From positions 1 through 64,000 of the forward strand of contig JAPPLI010000190.1 of NCBI GenBank assembly GCA_028819495.1: a DNA stretch of 64,000 nt, written 5' to 3'. The translations under genes and the position numbers were made by a program. Below the pieces are notes generated by a model. That model searched no databases, was not told the DNA's origin, and saw nothing but the letters and a program-made list of their open reading frames with translations. This stretch comes from Gammaproteobacteria bacterium. Lineage in GTDB: Bacteria > Pseudomonadota > Gammaproteobacteria > Eutrophobiales > Eutrophobiaceae. This document shows positions 12,085-41,743 of the stretch, piece after piece. Position 1 is the stretch's first letter; each line of letters opens with the position of its first letter.

Positions 12085-13233
12085 ATGAGCCGGGATTCGC
12101 TGCCGTTCATCACCCATATCATCCTGTTCGGCAGGAAACTGCATGACGCCGGCATCGACGTCAACCCCGCCAACCTCATCGACCTGAGCCGCAGCCTGCA
12201 ATACATCGACGTAGCCAGTCGCCGGGACTTTTACGCAGCGGCCCTGGCGACATTGATTATCAACAGGGAAGATATGCAGTTGTTCACCCTGCTGTTCAAC
12301 GAGTACTGGGACACCCTTGAAACGTCGGAGGAGCCGGTAGATCCGGAGAAAAAAACCGGGGAAGGCGCTGCCGATTCCCAGGACATACAGCAGGAACGGC
12401 AGCGCGCAGACGGCGAAAACACTGAGGACGGAAACGAAGATGACGCTGAATCGGAACAAACCGGTTACTCCAGCCAGGAATTGCTGGCGCACAAGGATAT
12501 CGACAGCATGACCGATGAGGAACTGGAACAGGCGCGCAAGATCATCGCGGAACTGATCGCCATCCTGGCCAACCGCCGAAGCCGGCGCTTCAAGCCGGCA
12601 AAATCCGGCGCGCAACTGGACTTCAGGAAAATATTCCGGCGCAGCATGCCTTACGGGGAATACTGCCTGAAACTGGCCCACAGGACTCACCGGCTGAAGA
12701 AGAACAAGCTCATCCTGTTCTGTGACGTGAGCGGTTCGATGGAGCGCTACAGCCGGTTCCTGATTCAACTCATCTGCGCCATGGGCGCGAAGATCTCAAA
12801 TATCGAAGTCGCGGTTTTCTCGACCCGTATGACCAGTATTACGCCTTACCTGAATCGCAAGGATATCGACGAGGTCATTAAACAAATGTCGGACCAGGTG
12901 CATGATTGGGCCGGGGGCACCAATATCGGCGGTTGCCTGCGCGAATTGAACGAGCAACAGGCGCACCAGATGCTGAGTTCCCACACCATTGCCGTGATCC
13001 TGAGCGACGGCTGGGACCAGGGCGACGCCGACCTGATGCGTAGCGAGATGGAACAACTGCGGCGGCGCGTCAACAAGATCATCTGGCTGAACCCACTGCT
13101 GGGCAACATCAACTACCAACCGTTATGCAAAGGGATGCAGACCGCCCTGCCGTTCCTGGATTACTTCCTTCCGGTGCATAACCTGGAGAGCCTGGCCGAG
13201 GCCACCAGGTTGCTACGCACGCTCTGGCATTAG
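12085..13233 (+). CDS. CoxE-like VWA-domain protein
   Basis: A 382-aa protein with an acidic, low-complexity middle part (about 85-130, rich in Glu and Asp) and a C-terminal VWA domain containing the MIDAS motif FCDVSGSME. This is the architecture of CoxE proteins that pair with MoxR-type ATPases to activate molybdenum hydroxylases. The ATG at 12085 is preferred over the in-frame ATG at 12073 because GGGGA lies at good distance upstream of it. The stop codon overlaps the stop of the convergent IorB-like gene by three bases. Confidence 0.88.
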   Translation: MSRDSLPFITHIILFGRKLHDAGIDVNPANLIDLSRSLQYIDVASRRDFYAAALATLIINREDMQLFTLLFNEYWDTLETSEEPVDPEKKTGEGAADSQDIQQERQRADGENTEDGNEDDAESEQTGYSSQELLAHKDIDSMTDEELEQARKIIAELIAILANRRSRRFKPAKSGAQLDFRKIFRRSMPYGEYCLKLAHRTHRLKKNKLILFCDVSGSMERYSRFLIQLICAMGAKISNIEVAVFSTRMTSITPYLNRKDIDEVIKQMSDQVHDWAGGTNIGGCLRELNEQQAHQMLSSHTIAVILSDGWDQGDADLMRSEMEQLRRRVNKIIWLNPLLGNINYQPLCKGMQTALPFLDYFLPVHNLESLAEATRLLRTLWH

Positions 13234-15425
13234 GCCCTTAGCGCTTCCCTGACGCGTTCCCGGGTAAACGGCATGTGGCGCAAGCGCTTGCCCGTCAAAC
13301 GTTCAAACGCATTCGCGATTGCCGGTGCGACCAGTACGGCGCCGGTTTGACCCACCGCGCTGGGTTCATCCCCGCCGGGCAATATCTCCATATGGACCCG
13401 CGGCGAGTCAGCCATGGTGGGAACCGGGTAATCATCGAAGTTTGCCTGTTGCACCCGCCCGTTTCTGAACGTGATGCGCTCCGTCAGCGCGCTACCCACG
13501 CCGTAAACCACTGCACCCATGACCTGCGCCCGTATGTTGTCGGGCTGGACCGCGACGCCGGGGTCAATGGCAACCCAGATGTCATGGACCCTGATAAGGT
13601 CGCCCTCCAGGGAAATTTCTGCAATACCGGCAATCAGGGTATGGTGGTATTCGGCGAACGCGATCCCCAGTTCACGATCATTTTCCCGGCTTCGTGACCA
13701 ACCGGCCATCCCGGCAACGGCGTCCAACACCCGTTGCGCCCGCTGCGAACCCTGTAAATGACGCAACCTGAACTCCAAGGCATCGGCGCCCTGCTCCGCA
13801 GCGATCTCGTCGATGAATGATTCCACTGCAAATTTGTTGGGGGTAAATCCCACCGCCATAACCGAAAACGTCCTGATGCCGGGTTCCACCGGCAGGTGTT
13901 CGACAAGCTGGTTGGGGAAATCGTATTCCAGGTGGTCGGTGCCGGGCATGGATATTACCGGGCGCCGGTCTATGGATTCATATATGGCGGGTTCTGCAGT
14001 AGTCAGTGGTTCCTGCACCGCGACCCGGTGATGCCAGCCGTTGACATGTCCCCTGCTGTCGAGGCAGGCACGTAAAAACTGGCCGGTAACAGGTTTGAAC
14101 CAGCCGGCAATGACATCATCCTCGCGGCTCCAGGTCAGCTTGACCGGCCTGCCCGTCTGTTTCGACAACCATGCCGCATCATCGACAAAGTCCATCTCGC
14201 TGATGCTGCGTCTCCCGAAACCGCCGCCCAGCATGGCACGGTGCAGTTCGACCCGGCTTTCGTCTACGCCGGTTTCGCGCGCGATGGCCTTGATAGTGTA
14301 GACCGGCGCCTGGGTCCCCACCCAGGCTTCCACGTCGCTTCCGTTGTCCTTTGCCCAGACGACGGAATTAAGTGGCTCCAATTGCGCGTGGTAAATATAA
14401 TCCGTCCGGTAAACCCTTTCGATGATATTACCGGCCGTGTCGAATGCGGCAACAGTATCGCCCTGCCGATTCCATACTTCACCCTCAAGCGCCAGGTTGC
14501 GCGCCATTTCCGCGTGTTGCCCGAGAGCGGTTTCGCTGTCGAAATTATTGACTTCCCCGACCGGAGTCCAGTCAACCCGCAAACGGCGCCTGGCCTTGAG
14601 CGCGGCAGCGGTGCTGTCAGCCGCTATCACCACGCTGCGCTCCCGGCTATACACGCCGCCCACACCTGGGACACTGCGTGCCTGTGCGTCATCAACAGTT
14701 GCAGGCCCGGCGTTCATGACAGGTGCGCGTACCGCAGTGGCATAGAGCATGCCCGGCAAGCGTTCATTGATAGAGTAGCCGGAAGTGCCCGTTACTTTAT
14801 CGGGGATATCGCGGCGCGGAACGGAATGGCCTATCAGACGGAAATCCGCCGGATCCTTCAGGTCCGCCGCAGTTATCTCGGGTTCCGTCTCAGGCAGCCT
14901 GCCGAACCCTGCAATCTCACCATAAGTTAATTTGCGCCCTGTTCTGTTATGAACCACTACACTGGGTTCTGTAACCAATTCAGCAATGGGCGCCTGCCAC
15001 TTCTGTGCCGCATTCATCAGCAATATATGACGGGTCTGGGCACCGAAATGACGCAATTGTCTGTAATAGCCGGACACGGCCGTACTCGCGGCGGTGTAAA
15101 TCAGGCCGAAAAAACCCGGGTTGCCGTAAATCTCCGGGTCCGAAGGAGACATTTCAATGCGCACGTCGTCCCAGTCGGCATCCAGTTCCTCGGCGAAAAT
15201 CACGGGCAAGGCGGTCATGGAACCCTGCCCCAGCTCATCCACCGGAGAGAAAATAGTGATTATGCCGTCAGCGGCGATATTGACCCAGGCATTTGGCGAA
15301 AAACCGTTATCCCCGGCAGGAGACAGGTCCGGGCCGGCGTTGCCGCATCCGGGCAGCGATCCGACGGCGAAACCCACGGTCAAGCCGCTGCTTAATTTAA
15401 GGAATTGCCGGCGGCTGGTGTTCAT
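13230..15425 (-). CDS. IorB-like TAT-exported molybdopterin-binding subunit
   Basis: A 731-aa molybdenum hydroxylase large subunit of the isoquinoline 1-oxidoreductase beta type. It opens with a twin-arginine signal (NTSRRQFLKLSSGLTVGFA) ending near a Cys, so it is probably exported folded and perhaps lipid-anchored. The molybdopterin domain shows LGGGFGRRS. The C-terminal GxGE motif, which carries the catalytic Glu in most relatives, reads SAVGQTG, placing Gln693 at the Glu position. The likely [2Fe-2S] partner is not adjacent; the IorA-like protein at 27526-27990 is the only candidate in the window. ATG 15423-15425 is chosen over a TTG twelve bases upstream. Confidence 0.87.
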   Translation of the reverse strand: MNTSRRQFLKLSSGLTVGFAVGSLPGCGNAGPDLSPAGDNGFSPNAWVNIAADGIITIFSPVDELGQGSMTALPVIFAEELDADWDDVRIEMSPSDPEIYGNPGFFGLIYTAASTAVSGYYRQLRHFGAQTRHILLMNAAQKWQAPIAELVTEPSVVVHNRTGRKLTYGEIAGFGRLPETEPEITAADLKDPADFRLIGHSVPRRDIPDKVTGTSGYSINERLPGMLYATAVRAPVMNAGPATVDDAQARSVPGVGGVYSRERSVVIAADSTAAALKARRRLRVDWTPVGEVNNFDSETALGQHAEMARNLALEGEVWNRQGDTVAAFDTAGNIIERVYRTDYIYHAQLEPLNSVVWAKDNGSDVEAWVGTQAPVYTIKAIARETGVDESRVELHRAMLGGGFGRRSISEMDFVDDAAWLSKQTGRPVKLTWSREDDVIAGWFKPVTGQFLRACLDSRGHVNGWHHRVAVQEPLTTAEPAIYESIDRRPVISMPGTDHLEYDFPNQLVEHLPVEPGIRTFSVMAVGFTPNKFAVESFIDEIAAEQGADALEFRLRHLQGSQRAQRVLDAVAGMAGWSRSRENDRELGIAFAEYHHTLIAGIAEISLEGDLIRVHDIWVAIDPGVAVQPDNIRAQVMGAVVYGVGSALTERITFRNGRVQQANFDDYPVPTMADSPRVHMEILPGGDEPSAVGQTGAVLVAPAIANAFERLTGKRLRHMPFTRERVREALRA

Positions 15426-15471
15426 CGTTCCCGACAAGTTTTGGGGATGAGCCGTATTGGACCATTAACGG

Positions 15472-27525: not shown

Positions 27526-27990
27526 ATGATCAAGCTCAACGTAAACAACAGTCAATATGAAATCGACGTCGAAGCGGATACCCCGCTTTTGTGGGCGCTC
27601 CGTGATGAGATAGGATTGACCGGCACCAAGTTCGGTTGCGGGATCGCCCAGTGCGGCGCCTGCACCGTTCATGTCGACGGAAAACCCATGCGTTCCTGTG
27701 TGCTTCCGGTAAGCGCTCTCGGCAACAGGAAGATCACCACCATCGAACACCTGGCCAGAGACGGCTATCACCCGGTGCAGCAGGCATGGGTCGAGCTGCA
27801 AGTGCCCCAGTGCGGCTATTGCCAGTCGGGACAGATCATGTCGGCCGTGGCCCTGCTTGCCGATAAAGCCTCGCCTTCCGACGAGGATATCGACAAGGCG
27901 ATGTCCGGCAATATCTGCCGTTGCGGGACTTACCAGCGCATCCGCGCAGCCATTCATCGCGCCGCTGAATTACAACGGGAGCATCATTGA
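27526..27990 (+). CDS. IorA-like [2Fe-2S] subunit of a molybdenum hydroxylase
   Basis: A 154-aa protein with both family clusters: [17 protein letters not shown] plus a following Cys (MRSC), and QCGYCQSGQ with NICRCGTY. The sequence is closer to IorA-type small subunits, which pair with IorB-like two-domain large subunits and lack a FAD partner, than to the small subunit at 3298-3786. No large subunit is adjacent; the IorB-like gene at 13230-15425 is the only obvious partner. It is directly followed, one base after its stop, by the riboflavin kinase-HAD fusion gene. Confidence 0.9.
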
Positions 27991-27991
27991 G

Positions 27992-29029
27992 TTGGAATTA
28001 TCCGGCCGGGTAGTTACCGGAACAGGACAGGCCGCGGGTTTCACTGAGCTGGACCACGCAAAACAGCAATTCCTGGACAAACTGGGCATCGATACTTGGC
28101 CCGGCACGCTGAATCTGAAACTGGACGATGAAGATTCCCTCGCCGGATGGCACTCACTGAGAATCGGAGACGGTATCGGCATCCGCGCGCCTGACACTGA
28201 CAACTGCCACGCCCGAAGCTATCCCGTGCAGATCAACAACCATGTTACCGGGGCCATTATCTTTCCTGAAGTCGACGGTTACCCGGATGACCAAGTAGAA
28301 GTCATCGCCCCGCTGTCACTACGCGGGCATTTCTCTCTCAATGACGGGGACCGCCTTACGCTGAGCTTGATCAGGCCTGTACGGACCAGCGCCGTCCTGT
28401 TCGACCTGGACGGCACCCTGGTCGATACGGTGGACGCGTTTTACCAGCTCGCCAAACGGACCGGCGCGGAGTTCGGTCTGGAAGTATCCAGGGAGCGCAT
28501 GTACGAGACCCTGAACCACGGTATTTCCTACTGGGACCACGTTGTGCCGGAGTCAATGGAAGACCGGCCGGCCATGATCAAAAAACTGAACAGCAGGGCC
28601 ATGGAACTCTGGCCCGAACTCATCAAGGACAATGCCGGGGCTTTTTCAGGTGTCGTGGAAACCCTGTCCGGCCTCAAAACAGCCGGCTTTGCACTCGGTA
28701 TTGTTACCGGCTCAGGGGAATGGTCCCTGGATTTACTGTTTGGCCTGGGTGTGGCGGACATGTTCGATGCGGTAATTACCGGCTACGACGTAAAAAAACG
28801 CAAACCCGACCCGGAGGGCCTGAACAAGTGCCTGAAACACATGGACGTCGCTCCGGGTGATGCGGTCTACGTCGGCGACAGCGTTATCGATATGCAGGCA
28901 AGTCGCGCGGCAGGGGTACTGCCCATAGCCGTCCTGACCGGCGCCGGGACGTCTGCCAGCCTGTGTGAGGCAGGAGCTTACAGGATAGTCCGCAGCCATG
29001 AACAGGTACGCGCACTACTGGCGACCTGA
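27992..29029 (+). CDS. DUF120-type CTP-dependent riboflavin kinase domain fused to HAD phosphatase
   Basis: A 345-aa two-domain protein. Residues 1-130 match the archaeal RibK (DUF120) barrel: LSGRVVTGTGQAAGF, the GTLNLKLD motif, GAIIFPEVDGYPDDQVEVIA and LSLNDGD-like closing segment, as recalled from Methanocaldococcus RibK. Residues about 133-345 are a HAD hydrolase with FDLDGTLVDT, the Lys in KKRKPDPEG and VGDSVIDMQAS. Archaeal RibK makes FMN using CTP; HAD phosphatases of this group act on small phosphates. The fusion could balance riboflavin and FMN, but activity is inference. Likely start is TTG 27992-27994, one base after the IorA-like stop, with GGGAG upstream; no suitable ATG is present. 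Confidence 0.78.
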   Translation: MELSGRVVTGTGQAAGFTELDHAKQQFLDKLGIDTWPGTLNLKLDDEDSLAGWHSLRIGDGIGIRAPDTDNCHARSYPVQINNHVTGAIIFPEVDGYPDDQVEVIAPLSLRGHFSLNDGDRLTLSLIRPVRTSAVLFDLDGTLVDTVDAFYQLAKRTGAEFGLEVSRERMYETLNHGISYWDHVVPESMEDRPAMIKKLNSRAMELWPELIKDNAGAFSGVVETLSGLKTAGFALGIVTGSGEWSLDLLFGLGVADMFDAVITGYDVKKRKPDPEGLNKCLKHMDVAPGDAVYVGDSVIDMQASRAAGVLPIAVLTGAGTSASLCEAGAYRIVRSHEQVRALLAT

Positions 29030-29491
29030 ACGCCTCCTGGGAGATGTCATTTCATAACCGCGCTGTTCGTAGTCAAATCCCCCCAGTTCGAGACGTTCAA
29101 GGTCCGTTGCCTGCGGGGAGGCATAATAGGCCCTGATTTCACGCATCAACCCTGTTTCCCTGTCGAACACGACCCATTCGGCGCCGCGCAAGACGGTACC
29201 CTGGTATGTCTTGAAGTGGGTCCATTCGATCACCGCCTCGGCCTTGTCCGCATCAACGAGCAGTGCATCAATGGTCCAGCATGAGCCAAATTTCTCCACG
29301 GCCTGCTGCCAACGCTCCGCGATCTTGTCTGCCCCCCGGAATGGCCCCTCATACATCCCCGGTGGAAAGTAATGGACGGCGTCGGGCGTAAAACAGCGCA
29401 CTATCTTCTCCCGGTCCGCTTCATTGCAACCATCGTAGTATTCACGCATCACTGCTTCCATCTGAACGGCGTTCAACTGTTTTGCCGACAT
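29015..29491 (-). CDS. NTF2/SnoaL-like protein
   Basis: A 158-aa protein of the SnoaL/NTF2-like superfamily: REYYDGCNEADREKIVRCF at the start, then FPPGMYEGPFRGADKIAERW and a C-terminal strand region with YYASPQATDLERLELGGFDY. Superfamily members are small barrel enzymes or binding proteins; the reaction here is unknown. Its 3' end overlaps the end of the RibK-HAD gene by 15 bp. ATG 29489-29491 has AAGG upstream. It forms the left metabolic border of the AT-rich defence island. Confidence 0.75.
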   Translation of the reverse strand: MSAKQLNAVQMEAVMREYYDGCNEADREKIVRCFTPDAVHYFPPGMYEGPFRGADKIAERWQQAVEKFGSCWTIDALLVDADKAEAVIEWTHFKTYQGTVLRGAEWVVFDRETGLMREIRAYYASPQATDLERLELGGFDYEQRGYEMTSPRRRSGRQ

Positions 29492-29633: not shown

Positions 29634-32600
29634 ATGTCTACTGATACCCCCATTCGTGAAGGCCAAATCCTTAGAGGGCCGTTATTCAACGAACCGATGC
29701 GGGTAGAAACTGTTAAGCCAAACGGTGCCAAAACATGGAGTGTTGGGCTTGTCGGACTGCAATCAGAACAGTTCCGTCGGGTCACCCTGACTCCTGGCGA
29801 TATTTCTGATTTGACCATTGCCGAAGCTGCTTTCTCCTACAAAGGCGATGGACGGCTTTTACGCTTAGGCCTCCAGGCCTATTCCCTCGGTATCGCCTAT
29901 GAATTCGACCCTTATTTTGGCCTCTCTATCTCCCGGGTTGATCCACTCCCACATCAACTCGAAGCCGTTTACGAGTACTTGCTTAAGCTTCCCAGTGTAC
30001 GGTTTCTGCTTGCGGACGATGCGGGTGCTGGTAAAACGATCATGGCAGGACTGTTAATTCGTGAACTCAAGCTGCGAGGACTCGCCGAGCGGGTCCTCAT
30101 AGTCTGTCCTGCAAACTTGACGTTTCAGTGGCAACGTGAACTCAGGGAGAAATTTGACGAAAAGTTTCTTGTGATCAAAGGCGGTGATATTCGTGATCAA
30201 TTTGGTGTAAACCAATGGTTGGAACAAAAACAAATCATTACTTCTCTTGATCTGGCAAAAAGGGATGAAATTATCCGGGGTCTGCATCAAGCGCATTGGG
30301 ACCTGGTAATCGTCGACGAAGCACATCGTATGTCCTGGTCGCCACCGGCTCGTAAGACAGCGCGCTATGCACTTGGAGAACTACTGCGCGACAGCGCCGA
30401 TCACTTCCTCCTGCTGACCGCTACACCACACAAGGGAGACCCACAGAATTTTACTCTGTTTTTACAACTCCTCGACCAGGATGCCTATGCAGACGTGAAA
30501 TCTATCCACGAAGCCATGAATCGACAACGGGCACCCTTCTACCTGCGCCGCACCAAAGAAGCAATGGTTTACTTCCCGGAGAGGCACGCGGATGGAACAT
30601 GGATTGCTCAACCGGTTTTTACAAAACGTATTCCGCGCACAGCGAACTTTGCCATTGACGGCCTTGAGCTTGAGCTATATCAGAAAGTTACCCGCTTCGT
30701 CAAAAGACAAAGTGCCCGAGCTGCCGAACAGGGGGACGACCCGAGAGCAAGAGCCGTTGGCTTCCTGATGTCACTGTACCAGAGACGTCTCGCTTCCAGT
30801 ACCTATGCCATGCGTCGATCGTTGGAGAAACGGGCCAGGCGTTTGGAAGAAGGTCTTGAACAGGCTCAACAACTGGCGCGCACAGCACCACCCGTGCTTC
30901 CTGACCTGGAAGATATCGAGGAAATGGAAGATTCTGATCGCGAACGCTTGGAGGCTATGCTGGATGCGATCACACTGGCAGGTAATGCTGCGCAGGTGCG
31001 CGAGGAAATATCCGAACTCCGTCAAATTGCCCGGGAAGCTGGTGTAGTTGAAAATTCCGGTAGCGAAGCTAAACTCAGCCGACTTAAAGATATCATGCAG
31101 GAGGAAGGATTTTTTGAAGACCCTGACCAACGACTGCTGATCTTCACTGAGTTCAAGGATACCCTGGACCACTTGGTGGGGCACCTAAAAAGCTGGGGCT
31201 TTCAGGTTGGGCATATTCATGGCGGCATGAAATCCGGTTCTCGTGATGAAATCGGAAGCCGTCTCCATACTGAACAACAGTTTCGTGAAGGCAATATACA
31301 GGTACTGGTAGCTACCGAGGCAGCCGGAGAAGGCATCAATCTTCAATGCTGTCATATCCTTTTCAACTACGATATTCCCTGGAATCCGAATCGACTCGAA
31401 CAACGCATGGGGCGTATTCACCGTTACGGTCAACGTCACGATTGCCTGATCTTCAACTTCGTAGCAACTAATACTATCGAGGGACGAGTACTCCAACGCT
31501 TGTTGCATAAACTCCAAGAAATCCGTGACGCCCTTGATGATGACGCTGTATTCAACGTAGTCGGAGAAATTCTCCCATCTGCTCACGTGGAACGCGTACT
31601 CCGGGATTATTACGCGGGCAGACTGGGCCCCGTCGATCTCGAAGACCGGCTCTTGAAAGATGTGGACGAAAACCATTTTCGGAATATCTGTCAGACCGCA
31701 TTGGAAGGTCTGGCCTCCAGGAAGCTTAATCTTGATATGCTTCTTGAACGCCGTGCCCGTGCACAGGAACGCCGACTGGTACCTGAAACTATTGCTCGGT
31801 TCATCAAGGAAGCTGCCAAAAATACGACTCTATCGTTAAAGTCAATCAAAAATCTGCCTCATACGTTTGAACCAGGACGAACACCAACCGACTTAAAGAA
31901 ATACGAACGTGAGTCGGATTGGAAGCTACCCGAGATTGCAACCCGCTATCACCGCTTGTCAACGGACCGGAATACGGCAGAACAAAATAACCTGGAATGG
32001 GTCACACCTGGTCACCCGCTATTCGAAGCGTTGCGTCGGCATAGCCTTGAACTTGGCCAAGATACCTTTGCCAAGGGCGCATGTTTCCATTCTCTTGATC
32101 ACGAGTCACCAGTGCGACTAGATTTTTACCGGGCTCGTATTGTAGATGGTCTTGGTCACATCATTCATGAGCGACTATTCACTGTCGAACTAACCGGTGA
32201 GGGCGATAGCCGCCTTCGCGAACCGGATATTCTTGGAAACCTGAGTCCTGCCTTAAAGTCAACTGGTGACGGATTACTACATCACGACAGAGAATCGCTG
32301 GAAGTGGCCGGACTCCCAGAGGAAACAGCATGGCTCAATGAAAACGCCCTGGTGCCATTTCTGAATGAGGTTCGTAATGAACGGCTGGCCGAGGTAAACC
32401 GTATCGCTGAACACGTTGAACTATCATTAACTGAAGTATTGCAGCGTATTGACGATGAAATCGGCCGTGCAAATGAAGATGTAGAGAATAATATCACCGG
32501 CGCCGAGGGCCGTCTTGCCCAGGCCGAATCCCGCCATGCTGAACTATTGGCGCGGCGCGAACGACGCCGTAATGAATTCAAACAGCAGCAAACGGTAACT

Positions 32601-33047
32601 CTACAGGGCGTTGAGCGGCTTACCAGCATTCTTGTCCTCCCCCACCCTGAAGGTAAATCCCTTCAAGTTCAACAGCTTAGGCCAAATCCTGAGACGGAGA
32701 TGACCGCCATGCGAGTCGTGATAGAATATGAGCAGGCACAGGGGAGGCAAGTCTGCGACGTCCACGAAAAAAATCTCGGTTACGACATCACCAGTCTTGA
32801 CCTGGAGTCCGGCACGTTACGTCTGATAGAAATAAAAGGCCTTGCCGCCGGAACCGGCAGCATTCTGCTTACACCGAACGAGCGCCGGGTAGCTGAAGAC
32901 CGCCGCGATTGCTACTGGCTGTATGTGGTAACCAATTGCGCTGACGAACCTGAACTTCAAGAGCCTGTTCATGACCCGGCACGGCTACGGTGGCACGAAG
33001 TTACCAAGGTCGCCCACTATTACTTAGGCGTGGATGCCTTGAAGTGA
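29634..33047 (+). CDS. SNF2-family helicase with C-terminal DUF3883
   Basis: A 1137-aa superfamily 2 helicase/translocase related to RapA and to DISARM DrmD. Motifs in order: Walker A ADDAGAGKT (about 128-135), VDEAHRMS (about 225), LTATPHKG, LIFTEFKDTLDHL, ATEAAGEGINLQ and arginine finger region QRMGRIHRYGQ (about 590). Coiled-coil-rich stretches follow (around 400-450 and 900-990). Residues about 1035-1120 match DUF3883, with GYDITS and LIEIKG, resembling a PD-(D/E)XK-like core. DUF3883 helicases recur in anti-phage systems. It is the first gene of a seven-gene operon and probably a DNA translocase coupled to restriction. Confidence 0.88.
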   Translation: MSTDTPIREGQILRGPLFNEPMRVETVKPNGAKTWSVGLVGLQSEQFRRVTLTPGDISDLTIAEAAFSYKGDGRLLRLGLQAYSLGIAYEFDPYFGLSISRVDPLPHQLEAVYEYLLKLPSVRFLLADDAGAGKTIMAGLLIRELKLRGLAERVLIVCPANLTFQWQRELREKFDEKFLVIKGGDIRDQFGVNQWLEQKQIITSLDLAKRDEIIRGLHQAHWDLVIVDEAHRMSWSPPARKTARYALGELLRDSADHFLLLTATPHKGDPQNFTLFLQLLDQDAYADVKSIHEAMNRQRAPFYLRRTKEAMVYFPERHADGTWIAQPVFTKRIPRTANFAIDGLELELYQKVTRFVKRQSARAAEQGDDPRARAVGFLMSLYQRRLASSTYAMRRSLEKRARRLEEGLEQAQQLARTAPPVLPDLEDIEEMEDSDRERLEAMLDAITLAGNAAQVREEISELRQIAREAGVVENSGSEAKLSRLKDIMQEEGFFEDPDQRLLIFTEFKDTLDHLVGHLKSWGFQVGHIHGGMKSGSRDEIGSRLHTEQQFREGNIQVLVATEAAGEGINLQCCHILFNYDIPWNPNRLEQRMGRIHRYGQRHDCLIFNFVATNTIEGRVLQRLLHKLQEIRDALDDDAVFNVVGEILPSAHVERVLRDYYAGRLGPVDLEDRLLKDVDENHFRNICQTALEGLASRKLNLDMLLERRARAQERRLVPETIARFIKEAAKNTTLSLKSIKNLPHTFEPGRTPTDLKKYERESDWKLPEIATRYHRLSTDRNTAEQNNLEWVTPGHPLFEALRRHSLELGQDTFAKGACFHSLDHESPVRLDFYRARIVDGLGHIIHERLFTVELTGEGDSRLREPDILGNLSPALKSTGDGLLHHDRESLEVAGLPEETAWLNENALVPFLNEVRNERLAEVNRIAEHVELSLTEVLQRIDDEIGRANEDVENNITGAEGRLAQAESRHAELLARRERRRNEFKQQQTVTLQGVERLTSILVLPHPEGKSLQVQQLRPNPETEMTAMRVVIEYEQAQGRQVCDVHEKNLGYDITSLDLESGTLRLIEIKGLAAGTGSILLTPNERRVAEDRRDCYWLYVVTNCADEPELQEPVHDPARLRWHEVTKVAHYYLGVDALK

Positions 33048-33080
33048 CCCTGATAGGTGGGGAGTACATACAACAAAATC

Positions 33081-34217
33081 ATGAACCGCGCTGTATACTA
33101 TGAAAGCTTGATTAAGGTGCCGTCCTCGGCCCCGCCGCACTGGGCTGCATCCTGTACGCACCAGGAATGTTCACTGCACCAGTTGTCGCCGTATATCGGC
33201 AAGTTAAAAAGTATTATTGCCCATGACCTCATCTTGCAATACAGCAAACCCGGTGAGCTGGTAGCTGATATGTTCTGTGGCAGCGGGACCGTGCCACTTG
33301 AAGCAGCCCGCCTCGAGCGACGCGTGTTTGCTTCTGATACGAGCATCTATGCTGTCACACTGACCAAAGGTAAGCTTGAAGCGCCCTCTGATACCGAAAC
33401 TGCTCTTAAAGCCCTTGATCACCTTTTGGAACATGCAAAAACACTACCTGTGCCGGACCTTCGGTCTGTCCCGAAGTGGGTTCGTGCTTTCTTTCATCCC
33501 CAAACTCTCAAAGAAGTCTTACGCCTGAGTGAATTTCTTAATAACGAAAAACACTATTTCCTGCTGGCGTCCCTGCTTGGTATTCTGCACCATCAAAGAC
33601 CGGGATTTCTGTCGTTTCCCAGCAGTCATCTCGTTCCCTATCTCCGGTCAAAAAAATATCCCAGGGCTAACCATCCGGAACTCTATGAATACCGTCCCGT
33701 TACCGAGCGTCTCCAAGCTAAGGTAAAGCGCGCACTGAAACGCCCACCAACACAGTCACTAAATAAATTTGTCGACGATATCAGTATGTCTTCCGTGGAA
33801 TCCGTCAACCTCCCTGACGATATCGACTGTGTTATCACAAGTCCCCCTTACATGAATGCGCTGGACTACAGTCGTGACAATCGTCTGCGCCTATGGTTTC
33901 TCGGTGAAACTCATCTTGAAGCACCAGATCGCGTGCTGGCGAGTCTTGATGCTTTCAGAAGATTGATCAGTTCACTCTTGAAACAATTACAACAAAAAAT
34001 GCGCCTGGGCGGTCATTGCGTCTTTGTCATCGGCGAACAGACCTTTAGGGGTGGCGGACGATTTCCTTCCGAGGAGTTAACGAGGATTTTTTTATCACCC
34101 CCTTCGACATTTCAATTATGCGATGTGGTCAGCGACATCATACCTGACGTTCGCCGCTCCCGGAAACATTTTGCCGGCGTAAAACAGGAGAATATTCTTG
34201 TATTCAGGAAGTTTTGA
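33081..34217 (+). CDS. SPPY-type DNA amino-methyltransferase
   Basis: A 378-aa methyltransferase with AdoMet motif I DMFCGSGTVPLEA (about 63-75) and catalytic motif IV TSPPYMNALDYSR (about 252-264). SPPY is common in N4-cytosine methyltransferases and also found in N6-adenine enzymes, so the base modified is uncertain. A Cys/His cluster (CTHQECSLHQ) near residue 25 may bind metal. ATG 33081 is used; an in-frame GTG at 33057 is possible. It follows the helicase after 33 bp and precedes the kinase-ATPase gene by two bases, within one operon that encodes a second methyltransferase. Confidence 0.85.
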   Translation: MNRAVYYESLIKVPSSAPPHWAASCTHQECSLHQLSPYIGKLKSIIAHDLILQYSKPGELVADMFCGSGTVPLEAARLERRVFASDTSIYAVTLTKGKLEAPSDTETALKALDHLLEHAKTLPVPDLRSVPKWVRAFFHPQTLKEVLRLSEFLNNEKHYFLLASLLGILHHQRPGFLSFPSSHLVPYLRSKKYPRANHPELYEYRPVTERLQAKVKRALKRPPTQSLNKFVDDISMSSVESVNLPDDIDCVITSPPYMNALDYSRDNRLRLWFLGETHLEAPDRVLASLDAFRRLISSLLKQLQQKMRLGGHCVFVIGEQTFRGGGRFPSEELTRIFLSPPSTFQLCDVVSDIIPDVRRSRKHFAGVKQENILVFRKF

Positions 34218-34219
34218 AC

Positions 34220-36703
34220 ATGCGTAGAAATCTTCCTCCAAAAGAATTATTTCTTGGAAAAACGATACCACAATTTCCTAAGCATAAGATTCTGGAATAT
34301 ATTGATTCAGGTGCCAATGGGCATCTATTTCGAGCGTTTGACGAATCAACAAACAGCAACTTAGCGTTCAAGATCATTCCTGCAGGCAACTTGAAATCTA
34401 ACTATTTGGAGGAAGCATCGAAAGCTAACAGTTTGCAACATTCATCCGTTGTCAGTTGTCATGGTGTAATCGAATATTCAACCCCTGAAATACCTAGTGT
34501 CATTTTTATTTACGACTATGTGAAGGGCAAAAACCTGAGAGATTACATAAGGCAGGAGCGAGCCAATGTCAATGTACCTTTCATTGAGGGCTTTTTACGA
34601 TCCATGTTTGAGTTATTGTACGAGTTAAAACAACGTAAATTGTTCCATGGTGACCTGCACGCGGGTAACATACTTATCTCGAAGTCTGAATATGATATTT
34701 ACGGAAGAATCACCTTCCGAGTAACAGACTTTCGCGTAGGCGAACTAACAGGACATCCATCTCATCCTAACGACTATCTCTATATTGCCGAAACGCTTAG
34801 ACAGTTGCTGGAGTGCGTAGAATATCCAAATTGCGAAAGTCGGGACCGATATGCCTATGAAGTTCTTCGCCATGACTTTTTGGAACGGCATCTGACCGAG
34901 ACAAATCCTCTGGCTGACACATTGGCCACGAACCCACAGGAAATGCTGGAAAAATTGGACTCTATAGATGAAGAGTTTCTAGAGAAGGCAAAAGGAGAAA
35001 TCGTCCCGAAGCTGGTCACACCATTTGACTACCCTAACTGTGAGCAAATAGGAAACTCCCATCTTTTGCTCAAGAATCTTTATTCAGACCGTTTACTGGG
35101 ATTGTCGGACATCCAAGAACGGTCCAATTTAGTGTTGACCGGACCTCGAGGATGTGGAAAGACCACTGTTTTTCGTGCTCTGAGTCTGGACTATTTGATG
35201 TCAACAGGAAATGATCAACCAAGCGAGATTGATTATATAGGCATCTATTATAGATGTGACGACCTTTACTTTTCATTTCCAAGATATACAACTCCTGAAC
35301 GCCTTGAAGCACTGGACGTTCCCATGCATTATTTGATCGTAACCTTGTTAGCGACAGCTCTAGAGCAAATCAACACTTGGGCAAAAAAGCATTTCCCGGA
35401 GGATTTCAAAAAGAAAGAAGAAGCACTTGTTGTAAGTCTTTGGGAGTTATTTGAGTGGCCCCAACTGAATAATCCAAATGCGCGACAGTTGGCTACTCTG
35501 GTGGATAAATTAAAAGGTAAGGAAAGAAAACGCGCAGCAAAAAAACAACGTTTTGTTCATATGCAGGCTGAACCTGTCGAAGGCTATGTTGGCCCCGGTG
35601 TTTTGTTTGATGCTTGTCGTCTTATACGGAACAAGTTTTCTTTCCTTCGTGACCGCCCATTTTATTTCTTTATCGATGATTATTCTCGCCCGAAAATTAC
35701 CAAGGAGTTACAAGCAAACCTGAACCGATTGCTTATGCACCGGAGCCCAGATGCTTTTTTCAAACTCTCAACAGAAAGCCCCGTCTCTTTTGTACGCGAG
35801 GATGTGGACGGTAAACAATTTGTAGAATCCCGCGAACTTGGTTTAGTAAATCTCGGATTGAGATATATCAATGACGACAGAAATCAAACGCTTGAATTTC
35901 TTGAAGATCTATTCAGTCGCCGATTCCAAAGGGTTGAAGGATATCCTGTCCAAACTCTTGAACAACTATTGGGATCAATACCCCGCAATGAAAATGCCAC
36001 GGCCCGTGCCTTTCGAGAGAAACAAGGGCGTCAAAACTATGCAGGCAGAGAAACTATAGCTGCCATGTGCAGCGGTGATATCCACTACATCATTCGTCTT
36101 GTTGCCAGAATGGTGGATGATTATGGAGGACCAGACGCTCTGGCAACAACCCAAACTCCTTGCATACCTCCCCAGCAACAACATGATTCTATCCGTGCTG
36201 CTGCAGGTTCATTTATGGAATCTGTACGCACCTTACCTCGTTGGGGAAAACAGCTTGCTGATGTAACCGCAACATTCGGCAATGTTGCGCGTTCTTATCT
36301 CATGTACGAAACATCAACCAACGAAGCTAATGAACCTCCTCACCAGGCTTCCCGGATTGAACCATACGAAGCACTAAATCTATCCGGGCAAGCCCAAGAA
36401 ATACTTGATGAACTATTACGCTATTCAATTCTCATAGAAGATCCCAGGGGGAAAAGCCGGAGAGGAAAGGTTGTGCCAAGATTTTTTCTCAGGCGTTATC
36501 TGGTCCCCCACTTTCATCTGACGTTCAGTAAGCGTGACTCCCTTCAGTTAGAGAATCATCAGGTCGAAACGCTTTTGTGCGAGCCGAATAAATTTGAGGG
36601 CGAGATGAGACTGAAGTCAAAAAAAGATGCTGAGCGTCGCCGTCTGCGTCAACGTCGAGGTGGTCGAACACTTGATCAAGTCGATTTCCTTAAAGATGGA
36701 TAA
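34220..36703 (+). CDS. Protein kinase-like domain fused to P-loop ATPase
   Basis: An 827-aa fusion. Residues 25-230 form a Hanks-type kinase fold: glycine loop DSGANGHLF, Lys51 in AFKII, catalytic loop FHGDLHAGN (about 142-150) and DFR (170-172) where DFG is usual. From about 290 follows a P-loop ATPase with Walker A GPRGCGKT (308-315) and candidate Walker B FFIDDYS (483-489), resembling ORC/STAND-type NTPases. The C-terminus is Arg/Lys-rich (RRRLRQRRGGR). Role is probably sensing and signalling in the defence system. ATG 34220 has AGGAAG upstream and is preferred over TTG 34214. Base composition is more AT-rich than the neighbours outside the island. Confidence 0.82.
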   Translation: MRRNLPPKELFLGKTIPQFPKHKILEYIDSGANGHLFRAFDESTNSNLAFKIIPAGNLKSNYLEEASKANSLQHSSVVSCHGVIEYSTPEIPSVIFIYDYVKGKNLRDYIRQERANVNVPFIEGFLRSMFELLYELKQRKLFHGDLHAGNILISKSEYDIYGRITFRVTDFRVGELTGHPSHPNDYLYIAETLRQLLECVEYPNCESRDRYAYEVLRHDFLERHLTETNPLADTLATNPQEMLEKLDSIDEEFLEKAKGEIVPKLVTPFDYPNCEQIGNSHLLLKNLYSDRLLGLSDIQERSNLVLTGPRGCGKTTVFRALSLDYLMSTGNDQPSEIDYIGIYYRCDDLYFSFPRYTTPERLEALDVPMHYLIVTLLATALEQINTWAKKHFPEDFKKKEEALVVSLWELFEWPQLNNPNARQLATLVDKLKGKERKRAAKKQRFVHMQAEPVEGYVGPGVLFDACRLIRNKFSFLRDRPFYFFIDDYSRPKITKELQANLNRLLMHRSPDAFFKLSTESPVSFVREDVDGKQFVESRELGLVNLGLRYINDDRNQTLEFLEDLFSRRFQRVEGYPVQTLEQLLGSIPRNENATARAFREKQGRQNYAGRETIAAMCSGDIHYIIRLVARMVDDYGGPDALATTQTPCIPPQQQHDSIRAAAGSFMESVRTLPRWGKQLADVTATFGNVARSYLMYETSTNEANEPPHQASRIEPYEALNLSGQAQEILDELLRYSILIEDPRGKSRRGKVVPRFFLRRYLVPHFHLTFSKRDSLQLENHQVETLLCEPNKFEGEMRLKSKKDAERRRLRQRRGGRTLDQVDFLKDG

Positions 36704-37790
36704 CAGACAAATCCTACGGACTGATGAACGGTTAAGCAGTGTAGCTTGGCCTGCCCTACAAAAGATTGATGTTCCTGCATTGGGAGTTGATGACTGCCTA
36801 TTGATATGCGCCGGATTTGAAGAACGCTCTATCGAAACCCTACGCCGAATACGAGATGCTGGAAAATACGGTTTCTCTCTTGGATTAGTAAGTTATTTAC
36901 CGCAACAACCCGAAAACAGAGAGGAAGAATTACATACAATCAGCCAGGATGCGGATCTGCAGGAGACAAGGTTTGTCTATGACCGTGAAAATCCAGCAGG
37001 CATGGGGGAGAAACTAAAAGAGTTTACACAGGGATTCGACCGCGTTTTCATCGATATTTCCGGTATGTCCCGCCTCCTTATCGTTCAAACACTGGTAGCA
37101 CTATTGTCTCTTGAGAAGCATTCGGTGGCTGTAATCTATGGCGAGGCAAAAGACTATCCGCCGTCTAGAGAACAATTTGAACAAGATCACAGAGAGGATG
37201 TTACCAGACCGGTACCAGGTTACTTGTCTTCTGGAATTTTTGAAATAGCTGCGACACCTGAACTGAGTTCCGTCTCAATGTTGGGCGAAGCGATCAGACT
37301 GATAGCGTTTCCATCATTTGATCCCGCACAACTCACTAATTTACTTCAGGAACTACAACCTACTTATACAGAGTTTATTCATGGTATCCCACCGGCTCAA
37401 GAAAACAAGTGGCGAACGGAAGCAATCAGCAAACTCAATCGCTCAGCGTTGGATGAACTTCGAGGAAAAAGGGATCATGAGACATCAACGCTTGACTACA
37501 GAGAAATCTTGTACAAGCTACTCCAGATATATGCAGAACGGAGTATGTTTGATCGACTTGTAGTTGCTCCGACTGGCAGTAAGATGCAAGCGGTAGCAGT
37601 GGGTTTATTCAGAGCAGCGCTGCATGACGTACAAATCGTTTATCCCACGCCACAGGTTTTCACGACGCCGGAAGAACACACTGTGGGGCTACGTCAACTA
37701 TATCAACTTGATATACCTGCCGAAGCTTTTACTGATACAACCAGAAATTCCAGGGAAGATCCCAGCGACTCTTTCGAAACACACCCATGA
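36696..37790 (+). CDS. Uncharacterised Rossmann-like protein of the defence operon
   Basis: A 364-aa protein that I do not recognise as a named family. The first half has alternating strands and helices with LLICAGFEERSIE (about 36-48), RVFIDISGMSRLL (about 116-128) and VIYGEAKDYPP (about 147-157), compatible with a Rossmann-like or CARF-like sensor. A second region (about 270-340) has VVAPTGSKMQAVAVGLF. It starts in ATGGATAA, overlapping the kinase-ATPase stop by eight bases, and its stop overlaps the next gene's ATG. Tight coupling means it is probably part of the system. Ligand or enzymatic activity is unknown. Confidence 0.75.
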   Translation: MDNRQILRTDERLSSVAWPALQKIDVPALGVDDCLLICAGFEERSIETLRRIRDAGKYGFSLGLVSYLPQQPENREEELHTISQDADLQETRFVYDRENPAGMGEKLKEFTQGFDRVFIDISGMSRLLIVQTLVALLSLEKHSVAVIYGEAKDYPPSREQFEQDHREDVTRPVPGYLSSGIFEIAATPELSSVSMLGEAIRLIAFPSFDPAQLTNLLQELQPTYTEFIHGIPPAQENKWRTEAISKLNRSALDELRGKRDHETSTLDYREILYKLLQIYAERSMFDRLVVAPTGSKMQAVAVGLFRAALHDVQIVYPTPQVFTTPEEHTVGLRQLYQLDIPAEAFTDTTRNSREDPSDSFETHP

Positions 37791-40768
37791 TTCCCACAGA
37801 GTGTAAACGTCTGGCGGAGGTAGATTTCCCTATCGCCCTAGTATCCAAGCACGCTGCGCGGGAAAAATCGATCCGGCATGGGCATCCTTCGACATTGCAC
37901 TTATGGTGGGCAAGAAGGCCATTGGCGTCATGTCGGGCGATGCTGCTGGGACTGCTCTGGCCAGACCCCTGTGATCCACTCTGCCCGCAGGAATTTAAAG
38001 ACAAAGCACGACAGCTTTTGCAGCAGATACCCAACTGTAATCCAGGCATTACTGATGAGGATTTGCGCATGGCGCTGCTTCGCTTCATCGGCGATTTTGC
38101 AGACTGGAAACTTGCCGCGAACAGCACCTATCTTACCGTGAGCCGCGTGCTGGTGAAAATAGCGAATGGTGAAGAACCACCACTGGTCGTGGATCCTTTT
38201 GCTGGTGGCGGATCCATCCCACTGGAAGCATTACGACTGGGTTGTGAGGCATTCGCCAGTGACCTGAACCCGGTAGCCTGCCTCATCCTCAAAGTAATGC
38301 TGGAAGATATTCCGCGCCATGGGCCAAGGCTGGCTGAAGAGTTGCGGCAGGTTGGCAATGAAGTCAAGGAAAAAGCTCAGCAGGAACTCAAGGATTTTTA
38401 TCCGGATGATCCTGATGGCGCCAAACCTATCGCCTTTCTGTGGGCAAGAACAGTACGTTGCGAAGCCCCAAACTGCGGCGCGGAGACCCCACTCATACGT
38501 TCGTTCTGGTTATGCAAAAAGCCCAACCGGAAGCGGGCACTTCGACATTATGTTGAGTATTCTGATGAAATGCCACCGCACGTAAGATTCGAGATATTCG
38601 AACCGAAGTCCGAGGGAGAAGTAGCTAATGGTACTGTAGCCCGCGCTAGGGCAACCTGCCTTTGTTGCGGGGCGGTACTCCCACCGGAACGTGTGCGGCA
38701 GCAGCTTGCAAGCCAAAGAGGCGGTGCAGACGTAGTGTTCGATGAAAAAGGAAATCGATTAGGCGGGGCGCAAATAACGGCAGTAGTAATACACAGACCC
38801 GGTGAGACTGGACGGCATTACCGAATACCCTCCCAGTGCGACTATGATGCAGTTCGTAGGGCACAGAAACAGATAACGAATATACTTGAGGAGTGGAAGC
38901 GCGAGGGGCAAAAAAACCTGTGCCCATTACCAGACGAACCATTACCTCCGATTGGGACATTGGGTTTTCGCGTTCAACGCTATGGCATGGTGCAGTGGGA
39001 CGACCTGTTTACTGCTAGGCAGAAGGTGGTACTGGAGAGGTTGGTGCGGTTGTTGAATCACGGGTCAAACGAGCAACATATTATTCGCTTCCTTGCATTA
39101 GCGGTTTCACGTTTTATGGATGATTTCTCGTCACTTGTGCGCTGGATGGATCGTGAGACACCAGCCGCAACATACACCCTACAAGCACTACCTATAAAAT
39201 GGGATTTTTGTGAAATTAACCCGTTCGACAAGGCATCGTGGAGTCTGACAAGTTCGATAGATTGGGTAGCTCTCGTAGTCGAGAGTTTAAGCTGGTTAGG
39301 AGCCGGTCAAATCCAACCTGCCGACGCGACTGACCATCCATTACCTGATCAAACTGCCGGGGTCTGGTTTACCGACCCACCTTACTACGATGCCATTCCT
39401 TATTCTGACCTCTCTAATTTTTTTCTTGTCTGGCTCAAGCGTACACTGCCCGATAACCCGTTGCTGCGCGACCCGTTTGACCCCAACAACCCACTTGCGC
39501 CCAAGATCGCCGAGGCCGTACAGGATGAGACCAAGCAGGTAGATGGGCGCCCCAAAGATCGCGCATGGTTTGAGGAGACTATGTCGCAAGCCTTCACTGA
39601 GGGGCGCCGTCTTCTAAGCGAAGATGGTGTCGGGTCGGTCGTCTTCGCCCACAAGACCACTGAAGGCTGGGAGGCGCTGCTTTCCGGTATGATTCGCGGA
39701 GGCTGGACTATCACCGGATCTTGGCCTATCGCTACGGAGAGACTAGGTCGTCCACGCTCCCAAAATTCTGCTGCCCTTGCCACCAGCATACATCTTGTTT
39801 GCCGCCCACGCTCCGAGAACGCGCCAATCGGCGACTGGGCAGAGGTCTTGCGAGAACTGCCTAGTCGAGTTGCCAACTGGATGGAACGGCTACAGGGCGA
39901 GGGAATTCGTGGAGCCGACCTTATTTTCGCCTGTATAGGGCCGGCGCTCGAAATATTTAGTCGCTATGCACATGTAGAGACTGCGGAAGGTCAACAGGTT
40001 GCTTTGGCTGAATACCTGGAGAAAGTCTGGGAAGTCGTGGGTCGTACCGCACTTGAAAATGTTCTGGGTACGGCCGAATCAAAAGCACGCAATGGACTGA
40101 CCGGCGCATTGGAAGAAGACGCACGTCTGACCGCTTTGTTCCTTTGGGCTCTTCAAAGTACAAATAGCAACACAACGAACAACAATGACAATTCGACCGA
40201 AGAAGAAACATCACAGAACAAACCGAAAGGCTACAGCTTGATATTCGATGTGGTACGCCGTTTCGCGCAACCTTTGGGTATCGACCTTCCCAAGTGGGAA
40301 GATCGCATCATTGAGACAAGTAAAGGCGTAGTGAGGCTGATGGCCGTGACGGAGCGAGGTAAGCAACTCTTTGGCAAAGATGAAGCACAGGCCATGTCTA
40401 CGAGGATGGAACTGGAAATCTCGTCTCATCCCAACCCTTACCAGGGCATACTTTTCCCCGACCTTCAGAGTGAAGAGTTCGTTGGAGTCCGGGAACCACA
40501 GGCTGGATATGGTGAAATTCTACGTGGTAATCGAACATCAGACGGAATGCTTGACACTCACGACCACGCTACCACCCTGGATCGGATCCATGCTGCCATG
40601 CTATTGCAGGCTTCGGGTCACAGCCAGACACTTCGCAGTCTTCTCAAAACCGAACAAGAACGCGGTCCGGACTTCCTCCGTCTTGCGAACGCCCTTTCTG
40701 CCCTGTACCCTGTAAGCAGTGAAGAAAAGCGCCTGCTGGACGCCATGTTGCTGGCAATACCGAGATAA
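37787..40768 (+). CDS. DUF1156 DNA methyltransferase
   Basis: A 993-aa adenine-specific-type methyltransferase. The N-terminus is DUF1156 (FPIALVSKHAAREKSIRHGH, then HLWWARRPLASCRA), motif I is VDPFAGGGSIPLEAL (about 135-149), and catalytic motif IV is DPPYYDAIPYSDLSNFF (530-546). A Cys-rich stretch (CEAPNCGAE, CLCCGAVL; about 227-300) could form a zinc knuckle. Family members occur beside DUF499 ATPases and DUF3883 helicases in defence islands. It probably marks host DNA. Its ATG overlaps the previous stop as ATGA. The second methyltransferase at 33081 suggests either two target sequences or one acting as a sensor or specificity factor. Confidence 0.88.
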   Translation: MIPTECKRLAEVDFPIALVSKHAAREKSIRHGHPSTLHLWWARRPLASCRAMLLGLLWPDPCDPLCPQEFKDKARQLLQQIPNCNPGITDEDLRMALLRFIGDFADWKLAANSTYLTVSRVLVKIANGEEPPLVVDPFAGGGSIPLEALRLGCEAFASDLNPVACLILKVMLEDIPRHGPRLAEELRQVGNEVKEKAQQELKDFYPDDPDGAKPIAFLWARTVRCEAPNCGAETPLIRSFWLCKKPNRKRALRHYVEYSDEMPPHVRFEIFEPKSEGEVANGTVARARATCLCCGAVLPPERVRQQLASQRGGADVVFDEKGNRLGGAQITAVVIHRPGETGRHYRIPSQCDYDAVRRAQKQITNILEEWKREGQKNLCPLPDEPLPPIGTLGFRVQRYGMVQWDDLFTARQKVVLERLVRLLNHGSNEQHIIRFLALAVSRFMDDFSSLVRWMDRETPAATYTLQALPIKWDFCEINPFDKASWSLTSSIDWVALVVESLSWLGAGQIQPADATDHPLPDQTAGVWFTDPPYYDAIPYSDLSNFFLVWLKRTLPDNPLLRDPFDPNNPLAPKIAEAVQDETKQVDGRPKDRAWFEETMSQAFTEGRRLLSEDGVGSVVFAHKTTEGWEALLSGMIRGGWTITGSWPIATERLGRPRSQNSAALATSIHLVCRPRSENAPIGDWAEVLRELPSRVANWMERLQGEGIRGADLIFACIGPALEIFSRYAHVETAEGQQVALAEYLEKVWEVVGRTALENVLGTAESKARNGLTGALEEDARLTALFLWALQSTNSNTTNNNDNSTEEETSQNKPKGYSLIFDVVRRFAQPLGIDLPKWEDRIIETSKGVVRLMAVTERGKQLFGKDEAQAMSTRMELEISSHPNPYQGILFPDLQSEEFVGVREPQAGYGEILRGNRTSDGMLDTHDHATTLDRIHAAMLLQASGHSQTLRSLLKTEQERGPDFLRLANALSALYPVSSEEKRLLDAMLLAIPR

Positions 40769-40780
40769 TGTTGAGACGAT

Positions 40781-41743
40781 ATGAACGAGTGCTCTATCTG
40801 GCAGGTTTCCGCAGGTTCAAGTGATAGATCTTACATTAATCAGTTCCTTAAATATGGTGTAGCGTTGATCGGTCCTGGAGATATAGGGCCGTGGGTGTCT
40901 GGCCAAACCGATAAGGATTCGGATGATAACTTTATTCACCGTTTCGCTGAAGAAATGCAGATCGGCGATATACTACTGTTGCGAGTAGGCCAGTCGGCAA
41001 TTAGCGCAGTTGGGCTGATTGCATCCGAATACCAATATTTGACACAATTTGATGACGTAAATGGCTGGGATTTGCAGCACGCCCGGCGTGTTCGCTGGTG
41101 CCCGCTTCCTGCTTTATATGACTTTGGGAGGCCGGTGTTCGGTGCAAATCCTTCACGATTGTCGCGTGTTTTTGTTTCGGACCTAGTTGATTACGCTAAC
41201 CGCTTTGTTCGTTCACCACCAATAGAGTGGCAAACAAGCAAGTTGCCAAACCTACCAATAGAGAATCCGAGGATGGAAACGCCACCTGCCGATTTGCAAG
41301 ACATCATTACTCAGATTCAACGATTGTCCCAAATCTACTACCATAATGACTTTGATAAATGGCCGACGGAAGATGAACTCATCGCACATTGTGTCATTCC
41401 TTTTCTTCGTACCTTAGGCTGGCCTTCCGAAATGATTGGGGTCAAGTGGCGTAATATTGATGTGTGTGTATTCTCGGCCCTCCCAAGAAGTCCGGATAGT
41501 TGCTACTATTTGATCGAAGCAAAAACTTTGGGTACAGGTATTGAGGGCGCACTCAAACAGGCAAAACGCTATGTTTCAACACTCGGAGTAACACGGGATG
41601 TTATTACTACAGACGGCATCCGCTATCAAATGTATAACGCCAACAAGGATTTTGCGCCTGCTGCTTATGCAAATTTAGCACGGCTGAAACTACCGGCCAA
41701 AAAATTATTTGATAGGATGCGCCGGCCACAACCGGAGAAATGA
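40781..41743 (+). CDS. EVE-like domain fused to HsdR-N/PD-(D/E)XK nuclease domain
   Basis: A 320-aa protein. Residues 1-145 look like an EVE/PUA-like domain (IWQVSAG, YGVALIGPGDIGPW, MQIGDILLLRVG, SAVGLIASEYQY), a fold that reads modified bases in restriction factors. Residues about 185-300 match the type I restriction HsdR N-terminal nuclease: TEDELIAH, NIDVCVF and LIEAKTLG supply the Glu, Asp and Glu-x-Lys of a PD-(D/E)XK active site. It is the best candidate effector nuclease in the operon. Its stop overlaps the DUF499 start as ATGA. Domain calls are from motifs only. Confidence 0.75.
   Translation: MNECSIWQVSAGSSDRSYINQFLKYGVALIGPGDIGPWVSGQTDKDSDDNFIHRFAEEMQIGDILLLRVGQSAISAVGLIASEYQYLTQFDDVNGWDLQHARRVRWCPLPALYDFGRPVFGANPSRLSRVFVSDLVDYANRFVRSPPIEWQTSKLPNLPIENPRMETPPADLQDIITQIQRLSQIYYHNDFDKWPTEDELIAHCVIPFLRTLGWPSEMIGVKWRNIDVCVFSALPRSPDSCYYLIEAKTLGTGIEGALKQAKRYVSTLGVTRDVITTDGIRYQMYNANKDFAPAAYANLARLKLPAKKLFDRMRRPQPEK

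Follow-up and report, generated by a model that had tools for sequence, protein, structure and literature searches.

A gene in the 64,000-nucleotide stretch of gammaproteobacterial DNA analysed here (referred to as the window) joins a CTP-dependent riboflavin kinase-like domain (PF01982, DUF120) to a HAD phosphatase in a single chain. The kinase half is of a PF01982 type other than the housekeeping one, and some relatives of this type lie beside ubiX and ubiD. The best explanation, to which we give a probability of about 0.45, is that the protein would act as an accessory CTP-using riboflavin kinase and flavin-phosphate HAD phosphatase that sets a local FMN pool, chiefly for UbiX prenylation; we infer both substrates. 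The features of the window that bear on this proposal are the following.

8573 to 9892, minus strand: UbiD-family decarboxylase gene, the nearest UbiD to the fusion, 18 kb away
27526 to 27990, plus strand: orphan [2Fe-2S] subunit gene, xanthine dehydrogenase family, upstream of the fusion in most congeners
27978 to 27982, plus strand: GGGAG, likely ribosome-binding site, within the 3' end of the [2Fe-2S] gene and 9 nt before the TTG
27992 to 29029, plus strand: DUF120-HAD fusion gene, 345 aa, TTG start, TGA stop, kept in 10 genomes
28010 to 28363, plus strand: CTP-dependent riboflavin kinase-like domain PF01982, aa 7-124, 89 bits in Pfam, with MJ0056 and Thermoplasma RibK matches
28103 to 28114, plus strand: GTLN motif, aa 38-41, aligned with Thr43/Asn45 of MJ0056
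28394 to 28933, plus strand: HAD-IA phosphatase domain, aa 135-314, with four HAD motifs and a fold match to the AlnB phosphatase (Z 25.5)
29015 to 29491, minus strand: SnoaL-like protein gene, convergent neighbour, kept in most congeners

An earlier note on this DNA had described a bacterial fusion of an archaeal-type riboflavin kinase domain with a HAD phosphatase, and the Pfam scores bear this out (89 bits for PF01982, 122 bits for HAD_2). The motifs it had listed are all present in one frame at 27992-29029: GTLNLKLD (aa 38-45), GAIIFPEVDGYPD (aa 87-99) and EVIAPLSLRG (aa 103-112) on the kinase side, and FDLDGTLVDT (aa 137-146) and VGDSVIDM (aa 294-301) on the HAD side, with neither a stop nor a frameshift between the domains. 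The one-base gap that it had seen after the [2Fe-2S] gene is also there, as that gene ends at 27990 and the TTG of the fusion lies at 27992. This TTG is present in 7/7 genomes of the genus, and a GGAG-type site together with the TTG is retained in five of the six congeners checked; in G003, where the upstream context differs, the fusion may start earlier. With the N-terminal part aligned to the archaeal riboflavin kinase MJ0056 at E 2e-12 and the frame open throughout, nothing that could have undone the earlier reading (failure to align with RibK, a stop, a frameshift) was found. A chance, assembly or frameshift artefact was rejected since the same 345-aa architecture occurs without stops in 10 independent genomes at 40-93% identity, and dN/dS values of ~0.06-0.25 in both halves indicate purifying selection. 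One copy of the fusion comes from a contig of 3.57 Mb whose title calls it a chromosome (L036), and an AlphaFold2 model made from a ten-sequence alignment reached a mean pLDDT of 88.6 and a pTM of 0.85.

The Pfam match of the kinase half, CTP-dep_RFKase (E 3e-25, with a cut-off of 25 bits), is the only PF01982 copy in its genome, and the half matches Thermoplasma riboflavin kinase in addition to MJ0056. In common with archaeal RibK (MJ0056; Thermoplasma 3cta) it has the PF01982 domain, the glycine-rich loop, the GTLN motif, which we take to have a metal/CTP role, a conserved Glu, and LR at the C-terminal end. Residues G10 and G12, G38, T39, L40 and N41, in the loop and the GTLN motif, are invariant in alignment A2. 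However, the window protein differs from archaeal RibK in that it stays below the NCBIfam RibK equivalog cut-offs (63.8 bits versus 168 for NF040694, 73.1 versus 279 for NF010762), carries x.YP.D and a conserved Cys, is fused to a HAD domain, and is found in a host with RibF. The x.YP.D motif stands at the place of the archaeal [KR]T.H-type stretch, ahead of the conserved Glu, and in the alignment is common to forward, reverse and stand-alone bacterial copies and to a second archaeal copy (L084); the Cys is found in most bacterial copies where RibK has F/Y-G, but not in L084. These replacements suggest that the flavin site may be altered. In the DUF120 tree, which is midpoint-rooted and has several long branches, the bacterial types and the extra archaeal copy are placed apart from the canonical archaeal copies. 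In an archaeal Bathycorpusculum genome (G797, L099 4750-5145), a second stand-alone PF01982 gene with YP.D is present in addition to the canonical RibK. Judged by its sequence, namely the scores below the equivalog cut-offs and the different motifs, the PF01982 domain of the fusion is not a housekeeping RibK. The presence of ribF, which the earlier note had left to be checked, points the same way: an ordinary RibF-type flavokinase is encoded in the window's genome and ribF in 14 of the 15 PF01982 carriers, which argues against the fusion as the housekeeping kinase, and replacement of ribF was rejected on this ground. The single carrier without ribF is G002, an assembly that is 88% complete in 760 contigs. 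The literature search returned nothing relevant on bacterial CTP-dependent riboflavin kinase, nor on prenylated FMN (prFMN) with riboflavin kinase.

The HAD half is a complete C1-capped HAD-IA phosphatase. Pfam HAD_2 covers aa 135-314 at E 4.7e-35, the motif residues D138/D140, T239, K271 and D296/D300 are invariant in alignment A2, and the subfamily IA profiles TIGR01549 and TIGR01509 both score above cut-off. The domain has the HAD-IA fold and four motifs of Gph, AlnB and the BT2121 pyrophosphatase, but it scores far below the curated single-function cut-offs listed and falls in a tree clade apart from Gph. A phosphoglycolate phosphatase was therefore rejected, as the TIGR01449 cut-off is not reached (109.8 bits versus 180) and the clade is separate from Gph-like proteins. 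When the whole model was used in a fold search, the HAD half matched AlnB (closest), Gph and beta-phosphoglucomutase, and only HAD structures were among the matches listed; the kinase half was placed by its sequence match to MJ0056 and not by the fold search. AlnB dephosphorylates a C-riboside phosphate. The HAD domains of forward and reversed fusions form one clade (support 100/99) relative to Gph-like and a few other HADs, a small sample in which the tree speaks to kinship within the sample and not across the superfamily.

Full-length fusions turned up, among 193 genomes, in 7/7 members of the genus; the family adds G014 and G027 and with them a second genus, and G171 belongs to a different family. 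Identity to the window protein is 67-93% in congeners, ~50% in G014 and G027, and 40% in G171. PF01982 is rare at large, occurring in 8/369 genomes of the class and 2/398 across the phylum. Other bacterial DUF120-HAD fusions, which the earlier note had thought worth a search, turned up in several lineages and in both domain orders. The reversed form, with HAD first and PF01982 last, is encoded in G406, G312, G201 and G013; its PF01982 part matches MJ0056 by profile and its model has a pTM of 0.62. Its occurrence in four genomes suggests that the two domains stayed paired through a change of order, or were joined twice. The haloarchaeon Natrinema gelatinilyticum carries a forward fusion of 307 aa on a plasmid, and the search for DUF120-HAD fusions in the sampled archaeal phylum gave no open frame >312 aa among the matches listed. 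Extra DUF120 genes adjoin ribB on haloarchaeal plasmids (L109, L110, L107), near flavin-dependent catabolic genes. Behind the reversed fusion, a gene for a protein of 147-148 aa was observed in 4/4 genomes (L054 6450-6890, L060 8628-9071, L052 and L053); the 147-aa protein has no Pfam family, and its NCBIfam matches are weak and far below cut-offs (one at E 0.014). Weak PF01982 matches were also noted in a 187-aa frame (L071, G536) and where a 529-aa ORF, glycosyltransferase-like by eye, begins (L055 6045-7634, G231).

The association with UbiD and UbiX went unnoticed in the earlier note and is stronger than the molybdenum link that it had proposed. Among plasmid matches to the kinase half, the nearest is a stand-alone DUF120 protein of Azoarcus KH32C (AZKH_RS23515, 43% identity) with the same Cys and YP.D motifs. 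Unlike the window protein it has no HAD domain; its gene shares 4 bp with the end of ubiX in a phenylphosphate carboxylase (phenol-carboxylation) operon, with a NUDIX gene next, in the order ppcB-ppcD-ppcA-ppcG-ubiD-ubiX-DUF120-NUDIX. In G066 30 bp separate ubiD from the PF01982 gene that follows it, and ppc-like genes, NUDIX and ubiX belong to the same cluster; in G406 the reversed fusion lies 32 bp behind ubiD. Direct ubiX/ubiD neighbours are thus found in Azoarcus, G066 and G406, and none in the window or in G027, G171, G201 and G312; in these last four no close ubiD was found either. A UbiD at 18 kb, as in the window, is expected by chance in ~9% of cases. The distance to ubiD is ~5 kb in G014 and 13 kb in G013, where it is the only ubiD, G003 has two short UbiD gene remnants 3 kb upstream of the fusion, and the remaining carriers have no ubiD nearby; no ubiX was seen near the G000 UbiD genes examined. 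At least two direct ubiD neighbours in six lineages have a chance of ~4e-4 under random placement. Carriers have 1-14 UbiD copies per genome (median 6) versus 0-4 in non-carriers (median 1), with p 7e-6, or p 3e-4 with one value per genus, the level to which phylogenetic independence extends. UbiD number also tracks catabolic lifestyle, which is a confounder; the window's genome has 19 matches to Mo-hydroxylase large subunits.

As a working mechanism we propose that the N-terminal domain, going by its family, would phosphorylate riboflavin to FMN with CTP, separately from the FAD-making RibF. The FMN would be supplied to flavin-hungry aromatic catabolism, chiefly for UbiX prenylation, leading to working UbiD decarboxylases. 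The HAD domain would hydrolyse a flavin phosphate, either FMN or a flavin nucleotide that is spent or wrong, and the kinase/phosphatase pair would set the local FMN pool, as the plant enzyme AtFMN/FHy does with an unrelated kinase. UbiX requires FMN plus dimethylallyl monophosphate (DMAP) or diphosphate (DMAPP) (PMC6541611). Since RibF-type enzymes are bifunctional and continue to FAD (PMC9678776), a separate FMN-only kinase could be sensible where the demand for prFMN is high. LpdD, a prFMNH2-binding chaperone of UbiD (PMC10865409), is an example of a small accessory gene serving UbiD; we liken it by role and claim no homology. The HAD substrate is the weakest step of the proposal: by analogy with the plant enzyme and from the AlnB match FMN may be favoured, and an FMN phosphatase would counteract the supply of FMN, which is a point against our explanation. 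The prFMN link is the most interesting reading; for the window protein itself it is a putative one. More tentatively, and with the odds against so broad a statement, UbiD-rich bacteria may have a distinct PF01982 subfamily, stand-alone or fused to HAD in either order, that serves as a dedicated second riboflavin kinase route, making or recycling flavin phosphate for prFMN cofactors; this would be a step in prFMN supply that had gone undescribed.

Much of the above could also be explained if the protein were a bacterial counterpart of AtFMN/FHy that serves as a general switch between FMN synthesis and hydrolysis and is not tied to prFMN in particular, which we consider unlikely but the first alternative to be weighed. 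The kinase of AtFMN/FHy is of the RibF/flavokinase type, and its HAD comes first, resembling the reversed bacterial form. The window protein shares with it a HAD phosphatase and a riboflavin kinase in one chain, going by the account of the plant riboflavin kinase-HAD FMN hydrolase fusion that PMC9678776 cites from Sandoval and Roje (2005); the kinases are unrelated, and the window protein has no PF01687 match among Pfam matches up to E 1. The 18 kb between the window fusion and UbiD would fit such a switch, as would the haloarchaeal extra DUF120 genes, which are near LLM flavin oxidoreductases, flavin reductase or ribB and not UbiD, whereas the direct ubiX/ubiD neighbours in three lineages and the higher UbiD numbers in carriers argue for the prFMN tie. 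It is rather doubtful that the PF01982 domain has a changed substrate, such as a modified flavin, or that it binds flavin without catalysis and delivers it to the HAD: the retained GTLN motif and glycine loop, the invariant conserved Glu and the purifying selection speak for a working kinase, even if the motifs differ at RibK-conserved positions in all bacterial types (and partly in the extra archaeal copy) and the score is below the RibK equivalog cut-offs. We regard as improbable a UbiX supply unit with the kinase as the source of FMN and with DMAPP cut back to the monophosphate by the HAD or, in the phenol operons, by the NUDIX protein. Some UbiX enzymes do need DMAP (PMC6541611), a NUDIX gene follows DUF120 in two phenol operons, and the HAD gives scores to the pyrophosphatase-type BT2121 and PpaX, all far below cut-off; but HAD substrates are not readable from such scores, and the Azoarcus UbiX is closest to fungal PAD1 with Gln at the position of Phe181 of the DMAP-specific P. 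aeruginosa UbiX, which points to DMAPP use, a residue that by itself does not fix specificity.

The earlier note had further proposed a bifunctional FMN-making and dephosphorylating, or cofactor-editing, enzyme coupled to a molybdenum hydroxylase. The bifunctional part is plausible by analogy with AtFMN/FHy; the coupling is not supported, as the [2Fe-2S] gene is an orphan and is missing upstream of the G004 fusion (L056), and we judge a cofactor-editing partner of such a hydroxylase to be very improbable. No Mo-hydroxylase large subunit is found beside the [2Fe-2S] gene in the window or within ~8 kb in relatives, the nearest ones in the window being at 13230-15437 and 973-3279, and the surroundings of the G027, G171, G406, G066 and Azoarcus genes showed no Mo genes. 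In favour of a coupling are the [2Fe-2S] gene one base upstream, kept there in most congeners, and the MoeA/MobA-like genes near the haloarchaeal fusion (read by eye, with one BLAST match). In G014 the fusion has a divergent Mo-hydroxylase set and is followed by XdhC and MoeA-like genes, so that the two may share a catabolic setting in a looser way. The [2Fe-2S] gene is probably transcribed together with the fusion as its neighbour, and is at most a candidate partner. No small-subunit gene was noticed next to the large-subunit gene at 13230-15437, whose product the orphan [2Fe-2S] subunit might serve.

On the downstream side, a ~15-kb block (29634-44520) lies in the window between the SnoaL-like gene and a PhoD gene, and contains HmaA-, HmaB- and HmaC-like genes (PADLOC E values 1e-180, 5e-108 and 8e-100) together with an extra methylase, a kinase/ORC-CDC6-like protein and a CARF6-like protein. 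The two flanking genes are spaced by ~40-110 bp in G001 and G005 (L058, L057). In G002 a match to the candidate defence family PDC-S01 (L059 8128-9417, E 1e-133) occupies the SnoaL/PhoD junction, which suggests that the junction beside the fusion is an insertion hotspot.

If our explanation is true, CTP-dependent riboflavin kinases would have taken on, in bacteria, the part of a separate source of FMN, beyond their archaeal housekeeping role. The fusion would also be a candidate gene for the delivery of FMN to UbiX, about which little is known, and riboflavin kinase/HAD phosphatase fusions would have evolved twice independently, the plant enzyme being the other case. Even without the prFMN link, the bacterial PF01982 type with its changed motifs is an uncharacterised family that is automatically annotated as DUF120 or HAD hydrolase.
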